From Bacteroidetes bacterium GWF2_43_63 (lineage in GTDB: Bacteria; Bacteroidota; Bacteroidia; Bacteroidales; DTU049), in assembly GCA_001769275.1 (NCBI GenBank), contig MEOQ01000045.1, positions 1 to 64,000 of the forward strand: a stretch of 64,000 nt of DNA, in the 5' to 3' direction. Each line of letters starts with the position of its first letter. Position 1 is the first letter of the stretch. Below the pieces are notes generated by a model, which was not told where the DNA came from, made no database searches, and saw nothing but the letters and a program-made list of their open reading frames with translations. The translations under genes were made by a program, and so were the position numbers. Positions 19,879 to 31,558 of this stretch are shown here, one piece after another.

Positions 19879-20433
19879 ATGAAAAAGAACCCTATATATA
19901 CAATTGGCCATGGACACAGGAAACAAGATGAATTCCTTGGGCTTTTGAAGCAGTTTGAAATTCAATATTTGATAGATGTACGGTCTCAACCCTATTCTAA
20001 ATTCAACCCTGATTTTAACCAAAATGAGATAAAATTGTTTCTTGAAAAAAACTCGGTGAAGTACGTCTATATGGGAGATACTCTTGGCGGTATGCCAAAA
20101 GATCTTTCATGCTATACCCCTAAGGGTATTGTAGATTATGAAATATTGAAATCAAAGGATTTTTTCCTGAAAGGAATTGATCGGTTGATAATTGCAAATG
20201 ATCAAGATTTGAAGATTGTTATTTTGTGTAGTGAAAGCAAGCCGACTGAATGCCATCGCACTAAGCTTATTGGGCGAGTTCTGAGTGAACATGAAATTGC
20301 TGTTGTACATATTGATGAAAAGGGAAAATTGAAAGACCAAATCACGGTCATAAATGAGTTAAATAAGGGCTACTCAGAGATTGACTTATTTGGCGAAAAG
20401 AAAAATACAACTTCAAGAAAACCACATCTTTGA
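19879..20433 (+). CDS. DUF488-family protein (first of pair)
   Basis: The N-terminal YTIGHGHRKQDEFLGLL, the central LIDVRSQPYSKFNPDF and the late ILCSESKPTECHR are the three hallmarks of DUF488, a Rossmann-like family of unproven biochemistry. Conserved Asp, Arg, Cys and His suggest an active or binding site. The length of 184 aa is typical. The next DUF488 gene begins 3 bp after its stop and a dual-OB-type gene 1 bp after that, so the three form one operon. Paired, non-identical DUF488 proteins could act as a heterodimer. Confidence 0.85.
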   Translation: MKKNPIYTIGHGHRKQDEFLGLLKQFEIQYLIDVRSQPYSKFNPDFNQNEIKLFLEKNSVKYVYMGDTLGGMPKDLSCYTPKGIVDYEILKSKDFFLKGIDRLIIANDQDLKIVILCSESKPTECHRTKLIGRVLSEHEIAVVHIDEKGKLKDQITVINELNKGYSEIDLFGEKKNTTSRKPHL

Positions 20434-20436
20434 AAT

Positions 20437-20916
20437 ATGGAAATTTTTACCATAGGCGTTTATAACTCAACTGAAAAAGAGTTTTTTGAAAAATTGACCA
20501 CTTTAAAAATTGATACATTTTGTGACGTTCGTCAGCGGCGTGGCGTGCGAGGTTCAAAATATGCTTTCGTAAATAGCATCCGTCTTCAGAAAAGACTTGC
20601 GGAATTGAATATACAATACCTTTATGAGCCTGGGCTTGCACCTACGACCGAAATAAGAAATCTTCAAAAAGAAGTTGATTTGAACTTGGGGGAACAAAAA
20701 AGAGATAGACAGCAATTGGGAAAGGTCTTTATACTAGAGTTTAGTAATAGAATCATCAACAAATTTGATTTGACTCGGTTTAATTCCTTCTTGATATCTT
20801 CGGGCGCAAAAAAAGTTGTGTTTTTTTGCGTCGAGGAGTTTCCCAATGCATGTCACAGATCTTTAGTCGCAAATAAAATAAGAGATGAATTTAATTATGA
20901 GGTAAAACACCTATAA
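20437..20916 (+). CDS. DUF488-family protein (second of pair)
   Basis: The protein begins IFTIGVYNSTEKEFFEKL, continues FCDVRQRRGVRGSKYAF and ends VVFFCVEEFPNACHRSLVA. The DUF488 pattern is therefore kept, but the His of the TIGH motif is replaced by Val. It is shorter (159 aa) than its neighbour and only distantly similar to it, so the two arose by old duplication or separate recruitment rather than a recent tandem copy. It lies between the first DUF488 gene (3-bp gap) and the dual-OB gene (1-bp gap). Confidence 0.83.
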   Translation: MEIFTIGVYNSTEKEFFEKLTTLKIDTFCDVRQRRGVRGSKYAFVNSIRLQKRLAELNIQYLYEPGLAPTTEIRNLQKEVDLNLGEQKRDRQQLGKVFILEFSNRIINKFDLTRFNSFLISSGAKKVVFFCVEEFPNACHRSLVANKIRDEFNYEVKHL

Positions 20917-20917
20917 C

Positions 20918-21532
20918 ATGGAAGTTCTAATTGTTGCTAAAACGCATATGAGAAATGGGAGCTGCGTTGGAGGTTATGACATTACAAGTAAAAGAAATGT
21001 AAGGCTGTTAAATGCAAATGCTGAAAACCAGCCACATGACACTGAATTTAATGTAGGTCAGGTGTGGGAAATTGAGTACGCTATCAGACCGGTTCTAAAT
21101 CCACCTCACATTGAAGATGTCCTTGTTTTATCAAAGAATTTTATCAGAGAAGAAAAAAACCCTTACACTTTTTTGCTTAACAGTGTAAAAATTTGGAAAG
21201 GTGATCCAACTTGCATTTTTGATGGCAAAGTGAATTTTCCTCGGGGAAAGAGCTGTTTTGTGACAAATACAAGAGGAATTCCATCTCAAAGTGTTGGATT
21301 TTGGATGGCAGACAAAGATCTCGAACTTACAATTTTTGGAGACCAGAAGCACTTTTACTACTTTGGTGAATACGGCGATGTTTATGCAATCCCTTTTGTT
21401 GGTTTTCAACCTGTAGAAGACAAAATTAAAAAAGGCTCTATAATCAGGGTGTCCCTTGCAAGATGGTGGAATCCAAATCCAAATGAAGACAAAAGGTGCT
21501 ATTGTCAGCTGTCTGGTTGGTTTATGCAATAA
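20918..21532 (+). CDS. Dual-OB-domain-like protein of the DUF488 operon
   Basis: The 204-residue protein opens with EVLIVAKTHMRNGSCVGGYDI, continues with NVRLLNA and has later beta-rich stretches (VGQVWEIEYAI, GSIIRVSLARWW, YCQLSGWF). This layout matches proteins annotated as containing a dual OB fold, but I identify it from memory of the pattern and not from a search. OB folds bind nucleic acid or oligonucleotides. It begins one base after the second DUF488 gene. The repeated joining of DUF488 proteins with a nucleic-acid-binding partner points to a compact conflict or RNA/DNA-processing module, which is inference. Confidence 0.6.
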   Translation: MEVLIVAKTHMRNGSCVGGYDITSKRNVRLLNANAENQPHDTEFNVGQVWEIEYAIRPVLNPPHIEDVLVLSKNFIREEKNPYTFLLNSVKIWKGDPTCIFDGKVNFPRGKSCFVTNTRGIPSQSVGFWMADKDLELTIFGDQKHFYYFGEYGDVYAIPFVGFQPVEDKIKKGSIIRVSLARWWNPNPNEDKRCYCQLSGWFMQ

Positions 21533-21661: not shown

Positions 21662-22690
21662 TTATTTACTGGCGTTTTTTTGCGTATAAATTTTAATCAA
21701 TTCCATAACCCTATTCGTTATACGCGAGACCATGTGAGTTGGGCTGATTACTTTCACATTTTCCCCATACGACAACACCAATTGCTCAAATTCATAATTA
21801 ATGATCAGGTTTAATCTGACTTCCAGGCAATCCGGGGATAACCATTTTGACTTTTGCGAACCATGAAGAGGTTTTGTTTCTATGTATTTACCGGATAGTC
21901 CGAAAAACAACAAAACTACTTCTTCCACTTTTCCGTTTTCCGGAATTGTGACGCCAACAATGTCATCAAAAAATTCGTCCCAGTTCTCGTCTGTTTTTAC
22001 ATATTTTGCTCTTGTCAACTCTTCAACAGAAACAACGCGATCCAAAGCAAGAGTCCATATTTTATTCTGCTGCATATTCAGCCCTAAAACAAACCAGCGA
22101 TTGTTGTATTGCTTGAGGTAATATGGATGAAACTCTACTTCAATGGGCGCTTGCAAATCAAATGGATGATATTCAAGTTTCAGAACCTGCTTATATGTTA
22201 TTGCGGAATACAAAACGCCGACATATTCTACCCCCTTTAAGTACTCATTGCTGTCAAAAGATATTACTGATGGCTGAGTTGAATTACTTTCCATCCCCTG
22301 TTGCAACTTTGGTATCAACTCGTAAACCCACTCAAACTGCGGCATCCCTTTGAATTGGCTCAGAATTGAAACTGCATCTTTAAGCTGGTTGATTTCTACT
22401 TCGTTCAAAGGCATGTTATTGATTGAAAAAGACATGTCGGCATACCGGTAAAACACTTTATGCCCCTCCCTGATTTTGTTCAACTCAACCGCCCAGCCGT
22501 CGCAACTCTCCATAAATTCTATATCATAGAGAAGTTGTCGCCGGCTTATTCCTTTCTTCTCCGGGTTAATTTCCTGCAGGACAGTATCGACTTCTCTCAT
22601 TAGATCCTCAAGAAAGTACTTTCGGCCAGGGTTTCGAAAACAATTGTCGAGAATTTTATATCGAATAAGTGCATGTTTTGTGTCAGGCAT
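21662..22690 (-). CDS. WYL-domain transcriptional regulator (retron-adjacent)
   Basis: Residues 1-90 form a winged-helix DNA-binding domain (ISRRQLLYDIEFME). Residues about 140-330 form WYL and WCX domains, with YLKQYNNRWFVLGLN near 190. At 342 aa it is a full-length member of the family that commonly regulates phage-defence loci. It is transcribed divergently from the retron. Its -7 box (22715-22722) and the retron promoter (22745-22773) share about 60 bp, so a single bound regulator could control both. It is distinct from the WYL protein at 16797, with a longer N terminus. Confidence 0.88.
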   Translation of the reverse strand: MPDTKHALIRYKILDNCFRNPGRKYFLEDLMREVDTVLQEINPEKKGISRRQLLYDIEFMESCDGWAVELNKIREGHKVFYRYADMSFSINNMPLNEVEINQLKDAVSILSQFKGMPQFEWVYELIPKLQQGMESNSTQPSVISFDSNEYLKGVEYVGVLYSAITYKQVLKLEYHPFDLQAPIEVEFHPYYLKQYNNRWFVLGLNMQQNKIWTLALDRVVSVEELTRAKYVKTDENWDEFFDDIVGVTIPENGKVEEVVLLFFGLSGKYIETKPLHGSQKSKWLSPDCLEVRLNLIINYEFEQLVLSYGENVKVISPTHMVSRITNRVMELIKIYTQKNASK

Positions 22691-22714: not shown

Positions 22715-22745
22715 CAAATATATTAAATTTTCGCAACAATGCAAA
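22715..22745 (-). promoter_or_regulatory. Promoter of the WYL regulator
   Basis: On the minus strand, TATATTTG (22722-22715) is a perfect TAnnTTTG -7 box 25 bp before the start codon. TTTG (22745-22742) or TTG (22739-22737) serves as the upstream box. It lies back-to-back with the retron promoter. Confidence 0.6.
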
Positions 22746-22773
22746 TTGATTGCACTATTATAATATAGTTTTG
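22745..22773 (+). promoter_or_regulatory. Promoter of the retron ncRNA-RT transcript
   Basis: ATTG (22745-22748) and TAGTTTTG (22766-22773) fit the Bacteroidetes promoter with 17-bp spacing. The predicted start, near 22780, falls only a few bases before the a1 repeat at 22787, as expected if the retron RNA is at the 5' end of the transcript. Confidence 0.65.
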
Positions 22774-22786
22774 CTGCAGTTCTTTG

Positions 22787-23046
22787 AAACACCTGCCTAA
22801 GATATTGATTCCGGATGCTGGGAGTAATTGGGAAACCAATGAAACAATGATCGGCATCTCTTCCCGCCCTTGAGGTCCTTGTGGCACTTGTGGCTGGGAT
22901 AAATGTCCATTGGACATGTCTGGAGCCTGCATAGCATTTATAGCAATGAATGAAATTCAAGATATGAAGCTATGTAAGCTAGATATGATTGAGATCTTGT
23001 GAGATCAAGCACGAGCTCATACATAAAGAGTATCAGGCAGGTGTTT
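22787..23046 (+). ncRNA. Retron non-coding RNA (msr-msd)
   Basis: AAACACCTGCCT (22787-22798) is the exact reverse complement of AGGCAGGTGTTT (23035-23046). This 12-bp pair brackets 236 nt and matches the a1/a2 stem that closes retron RNAs. Inside are hairpins such as ATTGG-GAAA-CCAAT, ATGTCC-ATT-GGACAT and CATAGC...GCTATG (8 bp with one G-U). The 3' repeat ends 23 bp before the RT start, the standard retron order. I cannot assign the branching guanosine or the msr/msd boundary with confidence. The RT would copy part of this RNA into msDNA. Confidence 0.8.
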
Positions 23047-23069
23047 TCGAGGAGCTAAAAAGCTAAAAA

Positions 23070-24239
23070 ATGCAAATTGAACAAAAACATATTGACACAT
23101 TAAGAGCACACTTTGCCGAAATGCAAAACAAAGAGGAATTGGCCTTGCTTTTAAGCGCTGCAAAAAATATTCTTTACGGAAAAGTGTGCAAACCAATAAG
23201 TGTAAAGTCTCTGAATTATTATGCAAATCCCGAGTATTGCAAACAGAGATATAAAACATTTGCAATAAAAAAGAAGTCGGGAGGAACACGCACTATTCAT
23301 GCTCCTGTTGAAGGTTTAAAAACTAAACTGCGCGCATTAAACTTCGCATTACAATGTCTTTATGACCCGCACAAAGCTGCAACCGGGTTTGTGAGAGAAA
23401 AATCAATTGTCGACAATGCAAAATGTCATGTCGGACACAATTATGTTTTTAATATTGATTTGAAAGATTTTTTTCATTCATTCGACAGAAACAGGGTGAA
23501 GATTGGATTCATGTCCGAACCATTTAATTTAAATGGCGAAAAAGAGCCACTAGCATTCTTACTCGCAAGTCTTTGCACGCATCCCTTTGAAATTGATGGC
23601 ATACAGCAAATAGTATTGCCTCAGGGCAGTCCCACATCTCCAACTATAACCAATATTCTATGCAGAAAACTGGACCATCGGTTAAGTGGCCTCGCTAAAA
23701 GATTTGGGGCAACATATACTCGTTATGCTGATGATATGACATTCTCTTCAGACCACAACATATACGGCAATGAAGATTTTAGAAATGAATTAGTTAGAAT
23801 TATTGAAGAGGATCAAAAGTTGAAGATCAATCCTGATAAGACCAGGTTGCAAAAAACTGGTTACCGGCAGGAAACCACTGGGCTGGTCGTAAATGACAAA
23901 GTGAACGTTACGAGAAGGTATGTCAAGCAAATTCGAATGTATATCTATTATTGGGAAAAATACGGATATGAGAAAGCTGAGCAAGTTTTCAAAAAAGATT
24001 ATACATTAGACAAGGGTTCTACAAAAAAGAAAACCCCAAGTCTTATCAACGTAATTGATGGGAAATTGAATTTTTTGAAAATGGTGAAAGGCTCTGAAGA
24101 TGGAACCTATAAGGGTTTAAGAGGCAGGTTTGATTCTTTAGCCGGAGTTTTTGATCCCATTAATGAAGTGTTGGATGCCTGGGAAAAGAATGGAATAGAT
24201 GAGGCAGTGAGTTTGTACTTTAAATTAAATGCGGACTAA
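23070..24239 (+). CDS. Retron-type reverse transcriptase
   Basis: The enzyme primes from its own RNA and makes an RNA-linked single-stranded DNA. Visible marks are the retron NAxxH motif NAKCH (116-120), FNIDLKDFF (127-135, catalytic Asp), QGSPTSP (185-191), the catalytic YADD box (219-222) and TTGLVVN (269-275) where most retrons have VTG. At 389 aa it is somewhat longer than average, with a C-terminal extension from about 300. It lacks maturase or HNH domains, which argues against a group II intron. The next gene's ATG overlaps its TAA stop by one base. The locus is AT-rich compared with hsd genes, consistent with separate acquisition. Confidence 0.93.
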   Translation: MQIEQKHIDTLRAHFAEMQNKEELALLLSAAKNILYGKVCKPISVKSLNYYANPEYCKQRYKTFAIKKKSGGTRTIHAPVEGLKTKLRALNFALQCLYDPHKAATGFVREKSIVDNAKCHVGHNYVFNIDLKDFFHSFDRNRVKIGFMSEPFNLNGEKEPLAFLLASLCTHPFEIDGIQQIVLPQGSPTSPTITNILCRKLDHRLSGLAKRFGATYTRYADDMTFSSDHNIYGNEDFRNELVRIIEEDQKLKINPDKTRLQKTGYRQETTGLVVNDKVNVTRRYVKQIRMYIYYWEKYGYEKAEQVFKKDYTLDKGSTKKKTPSLINVIDGKLNFLKMVKGSEDGTYKGLRGRFDSLAGVFDPINEVLDAWEKNGIDEAVSLYFKLNAD

Positions 24240-25390
24240 TGGCAAAAGATAAATACGACTTTATTTTGGAGTTGATTGCAAATAAAAAATTAAGCTTGAA
24301 TCAAAAAGATCGGGTATTAAATTTGTATGCATTGGAATTAAAGAAAGATGGCCAATTGTTGAACGAAAGACTAGAAATGATTATTAGTGAGAATAAAATT
24401 GATTTGGAATTAATAAAAAGAATTGAAGAGGTTGAAAGCAAGATGCGAAAGTTAAATGACGAACAAAATGCACCTCTTAAACCTGCTGAAGAAACAAAAA
24501 TAAGAATAGAACCAAATCCAAAACATGTTGCTGATTTCATGTCTTTATTTAATCAACGAGATGGGCTTAAGTATCTAACTCATGATTATGATGAAAATGA
24601 CGACTTTGAAATTGATAAAATTCTTATTCAGGCAAACAAAGTTTTCACTGAAGCAACAAAAAAACTATTTATTCCACAAAGCTTGTGGCGAACAGTTAAA
24701 CAATTTGCTTTTGACAGTAAGCAAACAGAGTGGACATCAATATCGGCAGATTACACAAAACCCATCCCAATAACAATCGGCTGGGCTACAAAAGAATTAA
24801 GAAATTGGTCAAAGCAAAACAAGTTACACCCTATCAGAAATAATGAGTATAAAAACATCATTAAAGATTTTAAAAGAATTACAAGAATTGAAGCTCCTGA
24901 TTTTGAAATACTTATTGACAAAACCCTGGGTTCCGTTTTTGCAGATGATATAGAAAATTTCGAAGTTCAAAAAAACGCGTTAGAAAAAGCAGACTTTTAT
25001 TCGCATGTGGGTTATTTGAAAGCAGCCTTAGAAGCTATATTCGAAGAAATAAAAAAACGATCAGATTCTTCTTTAAACAAGAAAATATCAATTCATTACG
25101 AACGATCTATTTCCGATGAAGGATATTACTTGAGAGAAGTTCTCATTACTCATCACAATTCATTTCCATCTAAAGAACTTAAACTAATATTACAAGAATG
25201 GAATGAAAAAGGTAACATGGGGAAAATCAAAGAGAAACTTAGAGGGTACTGCCATTGGTCTGTTGAAACCATTATTGAAGAAAAAGCCACTAAAGTTAAC
25301 ATTCTAAGAGATAAAGAATCCCCTGATTTCGAACTTATTGATAAAGTACCCGTTGGGTTTACTCATATATTAACCTTTTACTACAAATAG
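24239..25390 (+). CDS. Retron-associated protein, possible degenerate sensor-kinase-like ATPase
   Basis: No family is certain. Residues 1-80 are strongly helical and charged, probably a coiled coil. The last 130 residues (from about FYSHVGYLKAALEAIFEEI to GFTHILTFYY) have the helix-strand order of a GHKL histidine-kinase ATPase domain. A Gly-poor segment GNMGKIKEKLRGYCHWSVE stands where the G2 region and following helix would be. The N and G1 boxes are not convincing, so ATP binding is doubtful. Its start overlaps the RT stop by one base and the next gene follows by 2 bp. The two following genes carry receiver-like domains, which supports a kinase-like or scaffold role. Confidence 0.55.
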   Translation: MAKDKYDFILELIANKKLSLNQKDRVLNLYALELKKDGQLLNERLEMIISENKIDLELIKRIEEVESKMRKLNDEQNAPLKPAEETKIRIEPNPKHVADFMSLFNQRDGLKYLTHDYDENDDFEIDKILIQANKVFTEATKKLFIPQSLWRTVKQFAFDSKQTEWTSISADYTKPIPITIGWATKELRNWSKQNKLHPIRNNEYKNIIKDFKRITRIEAPDFEILIDKTLGSVFADDIENFEVQKNALEKADFYSHVGYLKAALEAIFEEIKKRSDSSLNKKISIHYERSISDEGYYLREVLITHHNSFPSKELKLILQEWNEKGNMGKIKEKLRGYCHWSVETIIEEKATKVNILRDKESPDFELIDKVPVGFTHILTFYYK

Positions 25391-25392
25391 GC

Positions 25393-26127
25393 ATGATTTA
25401 CCTAATAGATGACAATCAAAATAATCAGCGACTCAGCAACTATAATATTACGTTTATAGAAGAAGGCGCATTTGATGAGTATTTAATTTCAATTGACAAA
25501 CTTGAAATAGGAAGCAGCTTTTCTAGCACTTCACACTTAGATTTTTTAAAAAATGCAGACTGTATTCTTTTACATACCACAACAGAGGATTTTTTACCAG
25601 GAAAAGGGTTTATTCCAGGATCTAAAACCAATGTCCTAAAAATAAAGGAAATCATATCCCAAGAAGGGGAATTAATTCCGATTGTATTATTTAGCAATTC
25701 AATGGGAGAAACAGAATATAACTCTGATAAGAACCCAAACTATATAAGCTCTATTAAAAAGAATTTGTTTTATGAAAGACTCTTTGATTTTTTAGAAAAT
25801 TACAAAAACTCAGGGATAGTTGATTTAAGAATTATAGCTTGGGGCAGCAATTTTGCATGTAAAGAAGTATCAAGACTTGCGATTGAAATACTAAGTGCTT
25901 TTGAGTCAAAGGATAATTCGGACAGATTAAAATTAAGCGATTTGTCGCCGATTATTAAAAGTTTCAAAACATTTCTTGAGCTTTCCTTCTCTAATAGCAA
26001 AGTTAATGAAATCTTGAACGACATAGAGGATAATCCAATTAGGATTAAAGAATTTAAGGACAAAATTAAACATATAACTGAATGTTATGCCAAATATGGA
26101 AAAAACACTTGTAATTGGAAACAGTAA
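25393..26127 (+). CDS. Pseudo-receiver protein of the retron module
   Basis: The N terminus MIYLIDDNQNN matches the first strand and acidic pair of response-regulator receiver domains, and PIVLFSNSMGE resembles strand 4. At the phospho-acceptor position the sequence reads ADCILLHTTTEDF, so the Asp expected at the end of strand 3 is absent. This is probably a receiver fold without normal phosphorylation. The C-terminal 100 residues are helical. The last 41 bases overlap the start of the REC-HEPN gene, indicating coupled translation and near-equal amounts of the two proteins. Confidence 0.6.
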   Translation: MIYLIDDNQNNQRLSNYNITFIEEGAFDEYLISIDKLEIGSSFSSTSHLDFLKNADCILLHTTTEDFLPGKGFIPGSKTNVLKIKEIISQEGELIPIVLFSNSMGETEYNSDKNPNYISSIKKNLFYERLFDFLENYKNSGIVDLRIIAWGSNFACKEVSRLAIEILSAFESKDNSDRLKLSDLSPIIKSFKTFLELSFSNSKVNEILNDIEDNPIRIKEFKDKIKHITECYAKYGKNTCNWKQ

Positions 26128-27748
26128 ATTGTTGAATGATTTGGGTGGTGCTTTTATTGAACTGCCTAGCTTAAACAACGAAATCGAAATGCATAACTGG
26201 ATAGTTGATGTATTTCGTAAAAAAGAAATTGAAAAAGTTGTAATTGAAATTGCAGACAATCCAATACTTTCCCTTAAAATTGGTTATCATATTCGTCTTA
26301 GCATTGAAGATCTAAACAATAGAAGCCTTGTTCCAATTCTATTTATTTGTAAGCTGTCCTTAAATACATTAATAATTCAAACAACAATATTTAGTCATAT
26401 TTTATCTACCAAAGGAGTTTCCTTTTCAGAATATAATTTACAAGAAAATAAAGCGGAAATTGATAATTTGGTTGGTATTAATGAAAGCGAATTCAAAACA
26501 AGGTTTCTTGACATTATTCACATTCAACCTGATGAAACAGTGGGGCGACATTCTTTGGCAAATATTTGGGGAGCTTATTCTATGGATAAAGCTTCTAATG
26601 CCAATGCTCTGCAAGCAAATTCTGAATTTAAAAAATCACTCTATTTTAAGTATGTTTCAGCATTTAATAATCTTAGTAAATTAAAACCAACTACACTGAA
26701 AATACTGGGAAAAATAAATGTTGGCAGTATAAAAAAAATTGAAGCAATTAATAAAAGAATTCTACTTATTGATGATGAAGCTGATAAGGGTTGGGAATTA
26801 GTATTAAGAAAGGTGTTTAATACTTCTTGCGATAAAGATTTTATAGTAATAAAAGAAAAGGTAAAAGATTTTGATACGCTCTCGGAAGAAAGTAAACGAA
26901 TCATTAAATCAGAAAAATTTGATTTGTATCTTGTAGATTTACGTCTTAACGGATTGGACGAAGAAACAAACAATACAATTGAAGCGTTTTCAGGAATGAA
27001 AATGTTAAAAGAAATTAAATCTATAAACAATGGTAATCAGGTTATAATTTTTACTGCTTCGAATAAATCTTGGAACTTGAAATCCCTTTTTGATGCTGGA
27101 GCGGATGGTTATTACATGAAGGAATCGCCAGAATATAATTTTTCAAAAGCAATTTCCGAACAGAATTATATTGATTTCAAAGAAAGTGCTGAAAAATGCT
27201 TTAAAAAGAATTATTTGAGTGCAGTGTACATTCATTGGAGGAGCGCGAAAGAAATGAAATCTAATTTGATTAGTGATTTTATTATTGAATCGGACACTTC
27301 TTTAACTATTGCATGGAAATTAATATATCAGGAGTATCTTGATTTTGGATATTTAATATTATTCCAGATTATTGAATCTTATGCAGACTCCTTATTTCAA
27401 AGTGATGAATCAGGAGAAGATTGTAAAATAAATGACATCATTGTTATAAAAAAAATAGGCGATAATAAGAAAGAATGGGCACTTAAGCATATGCATAATG
27501 GTGCAAATGGAGATTATTTCACTTCTCGAGAAAAAGTGGAACAACATGCAACTCAAAAACCAACAGCTTTATTTAAGGCTTCTTGTATGTTGTATTTCAA
27601 ATACAAAAAAGATGATGTTTTTCTACAAAACTTTGGCAAATTGAACAGAATGAGAAATGACATAGCCCATGGAAAAGGAATCGGAATTGCAAACCATAAT
27701 AAATTGATTGAACTTTTGAAGATTATTAAAGAAATTAGAGAGAAATAA
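26087..27748 (+). CDS. Receiver-domain HEPN effector protein of the retron module
   Basis: Three parts can be seen in 553 residues. Residues 1-125 are alpha/beta and may be a second, degenerate receiver. Residues 223-350 are a complete receiver domain with acidic pair D229/D230, acceptor D284 (YLVDLRL), T323 (IFTAS) and K345 (YYMKE). Residues about 385-553 are all-helical and end with RMRNDIAHG, in which R523 to H528 fits the R-x4-H catalytic motif of HEPN ribonucleases. The start at 26087 (or 26096) lies inside the preceding gene. A HEPN domain behind a phosphorylatable receiver suggests an RNA-cutting abortive effector. The motif is seen, and the function is inferred. Confidence 0.75.
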   Translation: MPNMEKTLVIGNSKLLNDLGGAFIELPSLNNEIEMHNWIVDVFRKKEIEKVVIEIADNPILSLKIGYHIRLSIEDLNNRSLVPILFICKLSLNTLIIQTTIFSHILSTKGVSFSEYNLQENKAEIDNLVGINESEFKTRFLDIIHIQPDETVGRHSLANIWGAYSMDKASNANALQANSEFKKSLYFKYVSAFNNLSKLKPTTLKILGKINVGSIKKIEAINKRILLIDDEADKGWELVLRKVFNTSCDKDFIVIKEKVKDFDTLSEESKRIIKSEKFDLYLVDLRLNGLDEETNNTIEAFSGMKMLKEIKSINNGNQVIIFTASNKSWNLKSLFDAGADGYYMKESPEYNFSKAISEQNYIDFKESAEKCFKKNYLSAVYIHWRSAKEMKSNLISDFIIESDTSLTIAWKLIYQEYLDFGYLILFQIIESYADSLFQSDESGEDCKINDIIVIKKIGDNKKEWALKHMHNGANGDYFTSREKVEQHATQKPTALFKASCMLYFKYKKDDVFLQNFGKLNRMRNDIAHGKGIGIANHNKLIELLKIIKEIREK

Positions 27749-27804
27749 ACAATGCATATACATTGCACTGGAGTTAGCAACCTTTGCATCAAACATTAAC
27801 AACA

Positions 27805-30021
27805 ATGAAGATCTTTGATCACTTCCAACATATCAACCTCACAAGCGATCAACAATATGCGTTGGAAATGCTTCAGGAGTTTTTGGAGAGTGATGAAAGT
27901 GTTTTCATTCTTCAGGGATATGCCGGCAGTGGTAAAACTACACTCCTAAAAGGATTGGTTGAATATTTAAATGAAATTGGTCGTAAGTCTCAATTAATGG
28001 CTCCAACAGGAAGGGCGGCAAAAGTAATTAAACAAAAAACCGGATTTGAGGCCACCACAATTCACAAAGGCATTTACAGCTTTGATACTCTTGTCGAATA
28101 TGAGGCCTCTGAAACAGAAAACAACTCAGAGAGTTATAAATACTTTTACAAAACCAAATATAACCCAAATATTCATGAAACGGTGCTGATTATTGATGAA
28201 GCATCAATGATCTCAAATATTTCAAATGAAGAAGAATATTTTCGGTTTGGCAGTGGATGCTTATTAAATGATCTTATCGATTATTCTCAGATTAAAGCCC
28301 ATCATTCAGGTTCAAAAATAATTTTTGTCGGAGATCCGGCCCAGCTTCCTCCAATCGGCATGAACTTTTCGCCGGCCCTTGATAAAAATTATCTAGCTGA
28401 AAAATACGAGTTAAAAATTGTTGACGCGGAACTCAAAGAAGTCAAACGCCACAATGCAGATAATGGGATACTTAGTTCTGCCACCAAAATCCGTAAGTGT
28501 CTGACCTCTGGGTTTTTTAATGACTTTGATGTTAGAGAAAACGGAAATGATGTTTTTAATCCAAAGTTTGAAGAATTTATCCCTTCGTATAATGCTCAAC
28601 AAGGAACTAAGGTTGTTGTTTCATTTAAGAATAAAACAGCGTCTGACCTAAATCAAATTATACGCAAACATAAATACGGTTCTGATATTCCCATATTGGC
28701 CGGTGATATTATTCTTGTTGGTGGCAACCATTATCGGCTTGATATCATGAATGGTGAGTTTGGCGTTGTTTCAGCTGTAGCATCTGATACTATTAAACGA
28801 GAGGTAAGGTTTAATTTGAGAGATGGCCGCAAAGCATCGGTTTTACTCAAATGGAGACAGGTTGAATTGGTATTCCCTTCTGAAGGCGGTAACAGTAAAA
28901 TGGCAAAAGGTTACATGCTGGAAAACTTTCTATATGGAGATAGTTCTCTTAATCGTGAAGAAAAGCAAGCCTTATATATAGATTTTAAAAATCGAAACCC
29001 CAACATAAAACCAAAGACTCCGGAGTTTAAAGACGCCATAATTAATGACCCTTTTTTCAATTGCATTTTGCTAAAATATGGTTACGCTGTAACTTGCCAT
29101 AAAGCTCAAGGGGGAGAATGGGACTCGGTTTATGTTTTTTGGGATAAGGGAGTAAAAGAGAACTTTAACTTTTTGGATTCAGAACATAATCGATCCGGGA
29201 AAACAAATTCTGAATTCTATCGTTGGGCATACACCGCCATCACAAGAGCTTCTGGAAAACTTTTCTGCATTAATCCGCCTTATTTCAATTCATTCTCGCA
29301 AATGGCAATGGTTGAAGCTACTGTTCAGAACTCATTAAAAGAGTTGACGGGTCATGAAGCCAACCCAATTGAGGTTGTGATTTCAACTGAGGACAAAAAA
29401 CAACTTGAAAAATTTAATCTCACAAACGCTCCTTTATCATTTCAGAATCACTTTCTCCTAGTGAATTTCGCTATTGGAAAGCATTGCATTGATATATTGA
29501 AATGGGAAAAGGTTGGGTATGAAGTCCGATATCTGCTGAAACGAGAAAATGATACTTGCAAGCTCAAGTTTTGGATAAACGTTGACAATAAGTTTAATTC
29601 GAATTTTCAGAAAATTCCTACTAATACAAATTCCGAGACATTTTTTGAAGAAATATCCGCATTGATAAATGCCACCCCTGCAATTATTTTTTCAAGAAAT
29701 ACGGTTGACACAATAATTCCCAGAATTGTATTTGATGTAGCTATTGAAGAAGAAAAACCTTTTCTTGGGGTTCTGTTTGACTCATTGCAAAGATTGCACG
29801 AGAAATCAAGCATAACAATTGATTTTGTCGAGCATCTGAATTATAGAGAACGCTACACTTTTACAAAAGATGGCGAAACCGCCGTTATTGATTTTGAATA
29901 CAATGGTGATGGTTTCTTCGGAAGGGTTTTACCAATTGAAAACAAGTGTAGTAATATTGAATTGCTGAAAACTGTCTTGGATTCGGTTTCAAAATTAAAG
30001 GAGATGGATTATGTCATTTAA
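27805..30021 (+). CDS. RecD-like superfamily 1 helicase
   Basis: The protein is a 5'-3' type SF1B helicase by motif set. Walker A GYAGSGKTTL is near residue 37. PTGRAAKVI (motif Ia), LIIDEASM (II, near 130), FVGDPAQLPPIG (III), VTCHKAQGGEWDSV (V) and YTAITRA (VI) follow in order. The last 230 residues, after motif VI, are an unassigned mixed domain. I start at ATG 27805, since the longer frame adds only seven codons in the intergenic region. The downstream TPR gene overlaps its end by 11 bp, and the pair looks like a two-gene module separate from the retron genes. Confidence 0.88.
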   Translation: MKIFDHFQHINLTSDQQYALEMLQEFLESDESVFILQGYAGSGKTTLLKGLVEYLNEIGRKSQLMAPTGRAAKVIKQKTGFEATTIHKGIYSFDTLVEYEASETENNSESYKYFYKTKYNPNIHETVLIIDEASMISNISNEEEYFRFGSGCLLNDLIDYSQIKAHHSGSKIIFVGDPAQLPPIGMNFSPALDKNYLAEKYELKIVDAELKEVKRHNADNGILSSATKIRKCLTSGFFNDFDVRENGNDVFNPKFEEFIPSYNAQQGTKVVVSFKNKTASDLNQIIRKHKYGSDIPILAGDIILVGGNHYRLDIMNGEFGVVSAVASDTIKREVRFNLRDGRKASVLLKWRQVELVFPSEGGNSKMAKGYMLENFLYGDSSLNREEKQALYIDFKNRNPNIKPKTPEFKDAIINDPFFNCILLKYGYAVTCHKAQGGEWDSVYVFWDKGVKENFNFLDSEHNRSGKTNSEFYRWAYTAITRASGKLFCINPPYFNSFSQMAMVEATVQNSLKELTGHEANPIEVVISTEDKKQLEKFNLTNAPLSFQNHFLLVNFAIGKHCIDILKWEKVGYEVRYLLKRENDTCKLKFWINVDNKFNSNFQKIPTNTNSETFFEEISALINATPAIIFSRNTVDTIIPRIVFDVAIEEEKPFLGVLFDSLQRLHEKSSITIDFVEHLNYRERYTFTKDGETAVIDFEYNGDGFFGRVLPIENKCSNIELLKTVLDSVSKLKEMDYVI

Positions 30022-31558
30022 AGAAGTCAAAGAGCTTAGAACATCAGGAAAGCTTGAAGAAGCATTAACAATGGCGTCCTCGGATTTGGAGAATGATCCT
30101 TCAAATATCTGGAACAAACGTTCCATTGCTTGGGTGTATTACGATTATCTTAAAACGAATGCATATAAAGAATCCTTTGATAAATTTTCGGAAGTTTTGT
30201 CCAAGATAAATGAATTGGAATTGCCGGAAGATGAGAAAATGCTGTTCGATACTTTTTCGTACCAAATTGCAAAAATTATTTTTCATATATCAAAAGAGGA
30301 AAATATTGATTATTCGAAGTTAAATTCGATTTTTGATCAAATACAAAAATTTCATTTCACGAAACCATCAGAAGCTTATTCAATAGTTTATAAAGCTTTT
30401 CACAAAGGATATAAATCCTGGGCTAATTACATTCAATTCGCCGATTGGTGGGATTTTTCAAATTTTCGATCTGAGGATTATCTCAGTGAGGAATTTAAAG
30501 ACAAAAAAATGATGTCGATCGCTGAGCAAGCCTACATCGCATATTCTAAAAAGCTGCTTGACGGAGAAGCAAAAGAAGAAAGTAGTTGGATTGTACAAAA
30601 TAGTATCAACAAAGAAAAAATTCAAGCGTTTCTTCCAAAATTAAATACTATCATTGACCAACATCCGGAGTATCAGTATCCACCATATTTTAAAGCAAAA
30701 CTGTTGTTATCGCTTGGATTGGATCAAAATATTCTTTCCACATTTCTTCCTTTTGCCAGACAAAAAAGAAATGATTTTTGGGTTTGGGAATTAATAACTG
30801 AAATATTTCCTAATGATAAGGATGTGCAGTTTGCTTGCTTCTGCAAAGCGTTAAGTCTTAAAACCCCTGAAGACTTCCTGGTAAAAACGAGGCAATCACT
30901 TGCAAAAATTCTTATTGATCTACAACAATATGACGAAGCAAAAACAGAAATTCAACAAGTTGTTGCAACAAGAGAGAAAAACAAATGGCCAATTCCAAAT
31001 ATTATTGGCAAATGGACTGGAGAAGAATGGTATAAAACCGCCGTTATAAAGACCAACAATCAGGAATTGTATTTAAAACATATTACCAAAGCTGAAGAAG
31101 TAATATTTCAGGACATTGCAGAAGAGATTGTGCTAATTGACTATATTAATCTTGATAAAAAGATGATATCATTTGTCTCGGCTTCAGAAAAATTTGGGTT
31201 TTTTAAATACATGTATATTCCCGGGAAATTGTTTCAGGGAGATGCATTGAAAGTTAGATTCTCGAACAAAAATGATGGTGAACGATTTTTTATTTACACT
31301 ATTTCGCGGTATGATGAGAAAGCTGAAATACCTGGATTGACAAAAACGGTCAGCGGAAACATAAGAATAGGTGAAGGTAAAGATTTTGGGTTTGTCGATG
31401 ATGTGTTTGTTTCTCCACAGCTTATAAAAAACAATAATCTTACTAACAAGCAAGCGGTGTCTGGTCTCGCAATGAAATCATTCGATAAAAAGAAAAATAA
31501 TTGGAGCTGGAAAATGTATTGCATAAAACAGGTAAATAAAGATAACATTCACAACTAA
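30011..31558 (+). CDS. Helical-repeat protein with C-terminal OB/cold-shock-like domain
   Basis: Residues 1-360 are TPR-like helical repeats, starting with KELRTSGKLEEALTMA and continuing with segments such as DLQQYDEAKTEIQQV. The last 140 residues are beta-rich and read KFGFFKYMYIPG, GDALKVRFSN and GKDFGFVDDVFV. The KxFGF(V)xD style is typical of cold-shock or S1-like OB folds that bind RNA or single-stranded DNA. It overlaps the helicase gene by 11 bp, so the helicase and this protein are made together and probably work as a complex. The specific function is unknown. Confidence 0.7.
   Translation: MSFKEVKELRTSGKLEEALTMASSDLENDPSNIWNKRSIAWVYYDYLKTNAYKESFDKFSEVLSKINELELPEDEKMLFDTFSYQIAKIIFHISKEENIDYSKLNSIFDQIQKFHFTKPSEAYSIVYKAFHKGYKSWANYIQFADWWDFSNFRSEDYLSEEFKDKKMMSIAEQAYIAYSKKLLDGEAKEESSWIVQNSINKEKIQAFLPKLNTIIDQHPEYQYPPYFKAKLLLSLGLDQNILSTFLPFARQKRNDFWVWELITEIFPNDKDVQFACFCKALSLKTPEDFLVKTRQSLAKILIDLQQYDEAKTEIQQVVATREKNKWPIPNIIGKWTGEEWYKTAVIKTNNQELYLKHITKAEEVIFQDIAEEIVLIDYINLDKKMISFVSASEKFGFFKYMYIPGKLFQGDALKVRFSNKNDGERFFIYTISRYDEKAEIPGLTKTVSGNIRIGEGKDFGFVDDVFVSPQLIKNNNLTNKQAVSGLAMKSFDKKKNNWSWKMYCIKQVNKDNIHN

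Follow-up and report, generated by a model that had tools for sequence, protein, structure and literature searches.

Detocs and the type IX retron are among the described defence systems that come close to the locus presented here. Detocs joins a kinase, a receiver acting as a buffer and a receiver-effector, with a TPR-type sensor at its head, and it is not known to involve a retron. The type IX retron (retron-Kva2) is reported to keep a HEPN dimer in its complex and to release it directly as the effector (PMC13405049, preprint). We analyzed a stretch of 64,000 nucleotides from Bacteroidetes bacterium GWF2_43_63 (contig MEOQ01000045.1, positions 1 to 64,000), hereafter the window, whose forward strand carries at 22780-27748, in this order, a noncoding RNA (ncRNA), a retron reverse transcriptase (RT), a protein with a histidine-kinase fold, a pseudo-receiver and an iREC-REC-HEPN protein. 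Judged from its sequence, the locus is best read as a new retron type, in which a two-component-like relay would link surveillance by multicopy single-stranded DNA (msDNA) to a HEPN RNase. An earlier note on this DNA, written from the sequence alone, had already suggested a retron guarded through receivers, and we refer to its claims where our results bear on them.

We give a probability of roughly 0.6 to a mechanism in which the retron senses through its RT and msDNA and signals through the kinase-like protein to a receiver-gated HEPN effector. The ncRNA and the RT would make msDNA, and the RT-ncRNA/msDNA complex would be the sensor. This complex would hold, or be read by, the adjacent or fused HisKin-conflict protein as the transducer, which would inform the effector's receiver of the retron's state. 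Most likely, H115 of the transducer would alter the phosphorylation of D284 in the effector, and the His-substituted receiver would take part as a partner or buffer. A phage that interferes with the msDNA complex would switch the effector's receiver, and the switched receiver would free the HEPN dimer to cut RNA, so that the cell stops (abortive infection). The wiring of such a relay is supported by gene order, fusions and invariant residues; we infer that msDNA is made, that the complex forms, how phosphate flows and which way control runs, and likewise the RNase activity and the phage defence.

One argument for a connected system is the recurrence of the same arrangement. We compared 20 relay systems (the window, L007-L013, L015-L021 and L086-L090); L022, which comes from the same species as L012 and has nearly identical DNA, is excluded from these counts, and RT counts exclude the RT-less L009. 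Structure predictions and alignments A4, A5, A8 and A9 exclude L021. In 19 of the 20, the RT is directly upstream of the kinase-like gene or fused to it, so the accessory genes usually come with a retron RT. Eight systems (L017, L018, L020 and L086-L090) encode RT and kinase as one fused protein, and on a quick RT tree the fused or split state changed at least 4 times, with fusions in several branches. Neighboring genes overlap or lie at most 11 bases apart in the 11 cassettes that were checked. The same picture emerges when the search starts from the HisKin-conflict family PF22561, which matched 6 genomes among 148 relatives, 2 among 395 from the phylum and 6 among 400 from a different order. 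These amount to 12 distinct genomes (G000 and G524 each occur in two of the three sets and were counted once), and in every one of the 12 a retron RT adjoins the kinase or is fused with it, as in 6 of the 7 PF22561 loci from a contig search. Only 2 of 72,556 plasmid records match the family, both with an RT by the kinase, and the public annotation of both reads reverse transcriptase, hypothetical, hypothetical, response regulator. All named hosts of relay systems are Bacteroidota.

Within the window the parts are tightly packed. The RT frame (23070-24239) overlaps that of the 383-aa kinase-like protein (24239-25390) by 1 bp, the latter is separated by a gap of 2 bp from the 244-aa pseudo-receiver (25393-26127), and this frame in turn overlaps that of the 553-aa effector (26087-27748) by 41 bp, all on the forward strand. 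The distance from arm a2 of the ncRNA to the RT start is 23 bp. These coordinates agree with the frames, spacing and overlaps given in the earlier note. The effector may start slightly later, at 26096, because its M4 is the Met common to all aligned relatives (15/15).

The ncRNA (putative msr-msd) covers 22780-23060 on the forward strand, these being the limits of the aligned stretch rather than mapped ends. It is bracketed, as had been claimed, by a perfect 12-nt inverted repeat formed by arms a1 (22787-22798) and a2 (23035-23046), and the window sequence has a folding z of -6.1, with none of 200 shuffles folding equally well. We aligned 13 sequences (the window and 12 related loci, excluding L086-L090 and also L018, whose start is unclear) over 281 window bases. 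Covariation in this alignment is decisive on four of five measures. Both sides changed in 16 of 20 pairs of the consensus, the covariation score is 0.526 versus 0.253 in shuffles (0/500 reach 0.526), and 88.5% of the alignment cells pair versus 72.3% in shuffles and at most 44.7% with the partners slid; the fifth measure, further pair types, is at chance (28 vs 27.9, 299/500 shuffles). The structure was derived from the same alignment on which it was tested, which favors it over the slid versions. The a1/a2 helix (helix 1) has 91.9% of its cells paired and double changes in 8 of 10 pairs, and a second conserved hairpin (helix 2, 22814-22858) has them in 5 of 7. The motif TTGA is invariant in 13/13 aligned ncRNAs and contains a G at 22807 that is a candidate branching nucleotide for 2'-OH priming. 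A structured ncRNA with complementary a1/a2 arms upstream of an RT is what one expects of a retron.

A covariance model built from this alignment also recognizes sequences on which it was not trained. It places ncRNAs at the RT 5' end in L050 (6e-08) and L088 (2.6e-05), while its match in L087 (0.0025) overlaps the annotated RT start; further untrained rows are L022 (1.2e-28), L051 (0.027), L018 (0.064) and L086 (0.44). At E<=1 there was no match in L089, L090, L052, L053 and L054, nor in the RT-less L009, L049 and L065. In the genome of the window the model finds a single place, namely this locus (150 of 1725 first-look candidates were scored). A lenient search for a1/a2 arms was not discriminating against mononucleotide shuffles, as 2 of 40 shuffles equaled the window score and at least 10 of 40 did so for L013, L016, L017, L018, L021 and L009. 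Rfam at its gathering thresholds gave two tRNAs and no further match.

The RT itself (389 aa; RVT_1, E 7.7e-18) carries NAKCH, YADD and TTGLVVN. Its best PADLOC models are the retron RTs XI (7.4e-99), XII (6.2e-94) and I-C (1.5e-89), with RT_IX (1.9e-45) a poorer fit than models of these three types (7.4e-99 to 4.7e-89), and it stays below the NCBIfam cut-offs of related models (270 vs 600 bits and 240 vs 450 bits). Over the 19 RTs, NAxxH is present in 18, YADD in 19 and [VT]TG in 19, motifs that we take to be retron RT signatures. A reading as a group II maturase or other RT outside the retrons was rejected (6.4e-17 vs 7.4e-99 for the retron models). A tree built from 31 RTs unites the 19 from the cassettes with those of L050-L053 in a group of 23, under a fork with a support of only 90/75. 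Viral contigs scanned with the RT and with the receiver profile yielded no relative. Some members of this RT group have a different partner: in L050 (2863-5054), L051 (4184-6784) and L052 (3305-5492), one small accessory gene after the RT replaces the relay. The accessories contain RNKSSH in L050 and RNEGEH in L052, and RNMNH in L051, which is one residue shorter and fails the R-x4-6-H scan. They match neither the effector HEPN profile nor a HEPN Pfam family at E<=0.05, so that a HEPN identity is only a lead suggested by these short motifs.

At the other end of the cassette, the effector (PF22563, 1.1e-11; PF00072, 2e-07) is predicted with a mean predicted local distance difference test (pLDDT) of 83.9 and a predicted template modeling score (pTM) of 0.80. 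The model consists of an N-terminal alpha/beta domain corresponding to the iREC match, a receiver (residues 221-378; 26747-27220, forward strand) and, at the C-terminus, a helical domain that contains a beta insert; the iREC match also occurs in 7 of 10 further effectors scanned. The receiver has the CheY fold (2qr3: Z 11.5, root-mean-square deviation (rmsd) 2.6, 120 aligned) and the full residue set reported before, as the acidic pair D229 and D230, the phospho-Asp D284 and K345 are each conserved in 20/20 and position 323 holds T in 15 systems and S in the other 5. The C-terminus (27254-27745, forward strand) is assigned as a predicted HEPN domain by its motif, model topology and Pfam matches. 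The R-x4-H motif, also seen earlier, turns out to be general, with R523 and H528 both in 20/20, RN in 18/20 and a spacing of 4-6 in the 14 rows shown. In the model, helices at 396-552 surround the beta insert and R523-x4-H528 sits at the end of a long helix (510-527, with H528 just past it), a topology compatible with HEPN. Among 14 effector members, HEPN_RiboL-PSP is matched by 4 (best 2.1e-08) and HEPN_MAE_28990 by 2 (best 6.9e-05).

The 244-aa protein preceding the effector has no convincing Pfam match in the window, yet it looks like a receiver relative in which an invariant His replaces the phospho-Asp, a likeness with a weak score and strong conservation. When its profile is aligned by hhalign to the receiver of the effector, H61 falls on D284 and S101 on T323 (prob 59%, E 9.1e-5), and H61, F100, Y127 and F133 are all conserved in 20/20. 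L011 encodes pseudo-receiver and effector as one fused protein. An initial hhalign run against the whole effector gave an artefact alignment only and was replaced by the alignment to the receiver alone.

The guess that the 383-aa protein is kinase-like proved well founded, as it matches Pfam HisKin-conflict (PF22561, 7.9e-63) and its residues 214-383 adopt, in a model with mean pLDDT 77.1, the catalytic (HATPase) fold of kinases (best 9epn_B, Z 13.5, rmsd 2.3, 131 aligned). Ahead of this fold come an N-terminal helical segment and H115, the latter conserved in 20/20. No sensible relative came out of PDB searches that used profiles of the HEPN domain, the pseudo-receiver and the kinase. The N-terminal segment of the kinase-like protein (48 aa) was also considered as a general docking module, an idea that was dropped: it matches 7 of 295 genomes at E<=0.05, with 2.7e-25 for the window's own and only 0.009-0.045 for the other six. 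Its identity to the window is 52-67% in L008, L010-L013 and L021 and 26-27% in L007, L016 and L019, and it does not clearly track RT similarity (r=0.29, 35/5000 permutations, ten systems; r=0.15, 561/5000, eight), a comparison biased by the fact that MAKDKYDF was among the patterns that found those loci. In L019 (4493-6439), the kinase-like protein has about 250 extra N-terminal residues, placed between RT and relay.

Several findings weigh against the preferred reading, and a first set concerns the bond between the RT and the relay. Over the 19 RT-bearing systems, the pairwise identities of kinase core and effector are closely correlated (r=0.92, 0/2000 permutations), which speaks for a coupled relay, whereas those of the RT follow neither the kinase (r=0.09, 371/2000) nor the effector (r=0.11, 250/2000). 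For example, L010 shares 72% identity with the window in its RT and 24% in the kinase core, and L007 shares 53% and 74%, respectively. Because kinase core and effector coevolve and the RT shows no parallel change, the relay resembles an output cassette that can be exchanged, and these identities are most simply read as an exchange of two separate modules, the retron and the relay. The missing RT coevolution would fit such an exchange and gives no sign of a specific RT-kinase interface. Their independent evolution, in turn, makes the modularity of retrons directly testable via natural module swaps.

Both halves also occur without each other. A related RT (E<=1e-20) is found in 18 of 295 relatives, of which only 6 are relay systems and 12 lack the relay. 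L009 is an exception among the relay systems: a 764-aa protein of TPR repeats and HisKin-conflict is followed by the pseudo-receiver and the effector (L009:4642-9311), and no RT match was found among the open reading frames of the 12.9 kb read. The effector search matches 7 of the 295 genomes: in six the match belongs to a relay system, and in G100 (L049) it belongs to an operon without an RT. The RT family is therefore wider than the relay, and the relay parts are wider than the retron. The operon of L049 (3-10954) encodes three proteins with receivers, of which one carries a HerA/TraG-like ATPase and another is related to the effector and has R-x4-H near its end; the operon is apparently a relative of the relay logic.

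These observations could be taken to mean that a retron merely stands beside an independent kinase-receiver-HEPN defence system, the two being brought together by clustering in an island. The RT-less L009, the relay-less RT relatives and the uncorrelated similarities would all suit such neighbors, and Retron-Sda1 offers a reported precedent for a retron neighbor that acts without the RT (PMC12548924), a point that likewise tells against a coupled system. Two unrelated neighbors would not, however, be expected to fuse in several branches, as RT and kinase do in eight systems, to keep the RT upstream or fused in 19/20, or to stay within 11 bases in 11 cassettes. The fusions and the 19/20 led us to reject chance neighbors, and we consider the idea of unrelated units very improbable.

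A second set of adverse findings concerns the chemistry of the relay. Mapping the kinase profile by hhalign onto nine ordinary kinases of the window genome places an N-box Asn at the aligned position in 1/20 and puts His at the place of the G1 Asp (305) in 14/20, on a mapping (prob 0.4%) that is too weak for reliance. In the model, H115 comes just after a short helix (111-114) and not within a long dimerization and histidine phosphotransfer (DHp) helix. The standard ATP motifs (N-box Asn, DxGxG/GxG) thus seem degenerate or lost in sequence, which weighs on a literal phosphorelay and makes phosphotransfer by the kinase-like protein putative. The HEPN part has weak points too: the four C-terminal Pfam matches of the window are all to HEPN families and all below cut-off (0.004, 0.026, 0.065 and 0.14), and it has no fold-search match of its own, as receiver matches filled the list.

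With such motifs, the kinase-like protein might act as a pseudokinase adaptor. RT-msDNA, kinase-like protein and pseudo-receiver would together hold the REC-HEPN protein, and the receiver would serve as a conformational or nucleotide-responsive latch independent of phosphate from H115. The scarcity of the N-box Asn, on its weak mapping, is in keeping with this, and so is the HEPN dimer reported to be held in the type IX complex (PMC13405049, preprint). A mere scaffold, on the other hand, would have no need for a complete receiver active site and an H115 that are kept in 20/20, and we regard the adaptor as rather unlikely. The opposite extreme, a true His/His/Asp phosphorelay over H115, H61 and D284 that is exchangeable among retrons, was moved once onto a TPR sensor and gives different invader sensors a phosphate-gated HEPN RNase as their common output, strikes us as unlikely in this full form. 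The preferred reading, a retron that signals through the kinase-like protein to a receiver-gated effector, lends itself to experiment, with D284, H115, H61 and H528 as ready sites for point mutants of the relay. If it is true, retron output via receiver chemistry would join two well-understood signaling worlds, and a receiver-gated output could make abortive infection thresholded or reversible.

Upstream of the ncRNA, the earlier note had placed a promoter. A sigma-70 scan of this region found nothing above chance, and a promoter of that type was rejected. There is, however, a promoter-like TAnnTTTG element (TAGTTTTG) at 22766-22773 (forward strand), which starts 14 nt before the ncRNA and which we take to be of the Bacteroidota type. 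The element occurs at most 60 nt upstream of the ncRNA in 12 of 17 loci versus 0.74 expected from mononucleotide shuffles, at the identical -14 position only in the window, L010, L016 and L019.

The same region holds the palindrome TGCA-N7-TGCA (22740-22754, forward strand), a putative operator. Of 18 loci, 11 have it within the 120 nt that precede the ncRNA or first gene (mononucleotide-shuffle mean 0.016), at a distance of 40-72 nt, and the spacer is always 7 and never 4-6 or 8-12. The loci are the window, L008, L010-L012, L016, L017, L019, L021 and L050, where it precedes the ncRNA, and L009, where it precedes the first gene. Across the whole window the motif is not enriched (4 vs 2.1 expected). 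A second copy (27753-27767, forward strand) lies ahead of a TOTE-like operon, and of 9 gaps that separate the effector from the TOTE-like helicase, 6 contain the motif, two of these 6 lying on the near-identical plasmids L012 and L022, a count made without a shuffle control. On the other side, a gene for a WYL-domain transcriptional regulator (21662-22690, reverse strand; PADLOC WYL 4.2e-20) points away from the cassette, and a WYL gene was found in the stretch read around 11 of the 20 relay systems. It is probably the regulator of the retron cassette, and the palindrome likely its operator, common to the TOTE-like operon.

That downstream operon encodes a TOTE-like helicase (PDC-M16A, TBP-TOTE; 27784-30021, forward strand; PADLOC 8.9e-275, Pfam TBP-TOTE 1.2e-34) and its TPR and S1/CSD partner (PDC-M16B; 30011-31558, forward strand; PADLOC 9.1e-215, Pfam DUF7017 and S1CSD-TOTE). 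M16A and/or M16B stand beside 9 of the 20 relay systems, and the sequence read for the remaining 11 showed neither, with the limits that the contig of L010 ends after the effector, that about 1.1 kb is left in L087 and that the M16A match of L013 is a 91-aa piece. As an obligatory component the pair was therefore rejected. Of the six strongest M16A matches in the 148 relatives (>560 bits), all but one (G102, L065) adjoin this retron; one of the six, G028, is cut by a contig end, and weaker helicase matches (in 146 of the 148 genomes) were excluded. The pair is most likely a separate, co-located unit rather than a retron component. Upstream of the WYL gene, at 19879-21532, lie two DUF488-type genes (PDC-M45-like) and a dual-OB (DuOB) protein, a candidate for another conflict module.

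How, then, does the locus relate to the systems already described? TOTE conflict systems (PDC-M16) share its surroundings and operator motif, as outlined above, but they form a separate pair of helicase and TPR/S1 protein. At the level of domains, the kinase-like protein and the N-terminal domain of the effector are by score members of the Pfam conflict modules PF22561 and PF22563, entries that name domains only. Because Pfam names HisKin-conflict and iREC as conflict-system domains, the link to the RT may already have been noted, and priority for the retron-relay link is uncertain; the matches listed in a full-text search of the literature included no retron coupled to a histidine kinase and a receiver.

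Detocs resembles the locus in its logic of kinase, receiver and receiver-effector, and its TPR-type sensor resembles that of L009. The cassette could accordingly be a Detocs-like two-component defence module whose sensor was replaced by a retron, with novelty in the sensor only. L009, which puts the relay on TPR repeats, and the RT-less multi-receiver operon L049 favor such a view, in which homology to DtcA, DtcB and DtcC of Detocs would be hypothetical. We hold this origin to be possible, if improbable on balance, and it is compatible with the retron-driven relay that we prefer.

Among retrons, the accessory genes that define the known PADLOC types were not found here. No PADLOC model matches the 383-aa and 244-aa proteins at E<=1, and the 553-aa protein has only weak non-retron matches (0.0015 and 0.042). 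Types XI, XII and I-C provide the best RT models and, by name, carry their partner on the RT chain, as do the eight RT-kinase fusions, but these partners are a protease, TIR or Toprim. The view of a receiver-based guard as a new retron logic is supported overall, and neither of the outcomes that the earlier note had named as refuting it, accessory genes that usually lack a retron RT or a C-terminus without HEPN topology, was obtained. Two reservations apply: a literal phosphorelay is questionable, given the degenerate-looking ATP motifs, and a HEPN retron effector is already known. The latter is the type IX retron, which likewise combines a retron RT and ncRNA with a HEPN RNase effector. In that system, the complex is reported to consist of a winged-helix protein and a HEPN protein that is encoded separately and has no canonical R-x4-6-H-type motif (PMC13405049). 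Separate HEPN and winged-helix genes were not found in the present operon; here, unlike in type IX, the predicted HEPN domain is fused to a receiver and appears to be linked to the retron via a kinase-like protein.

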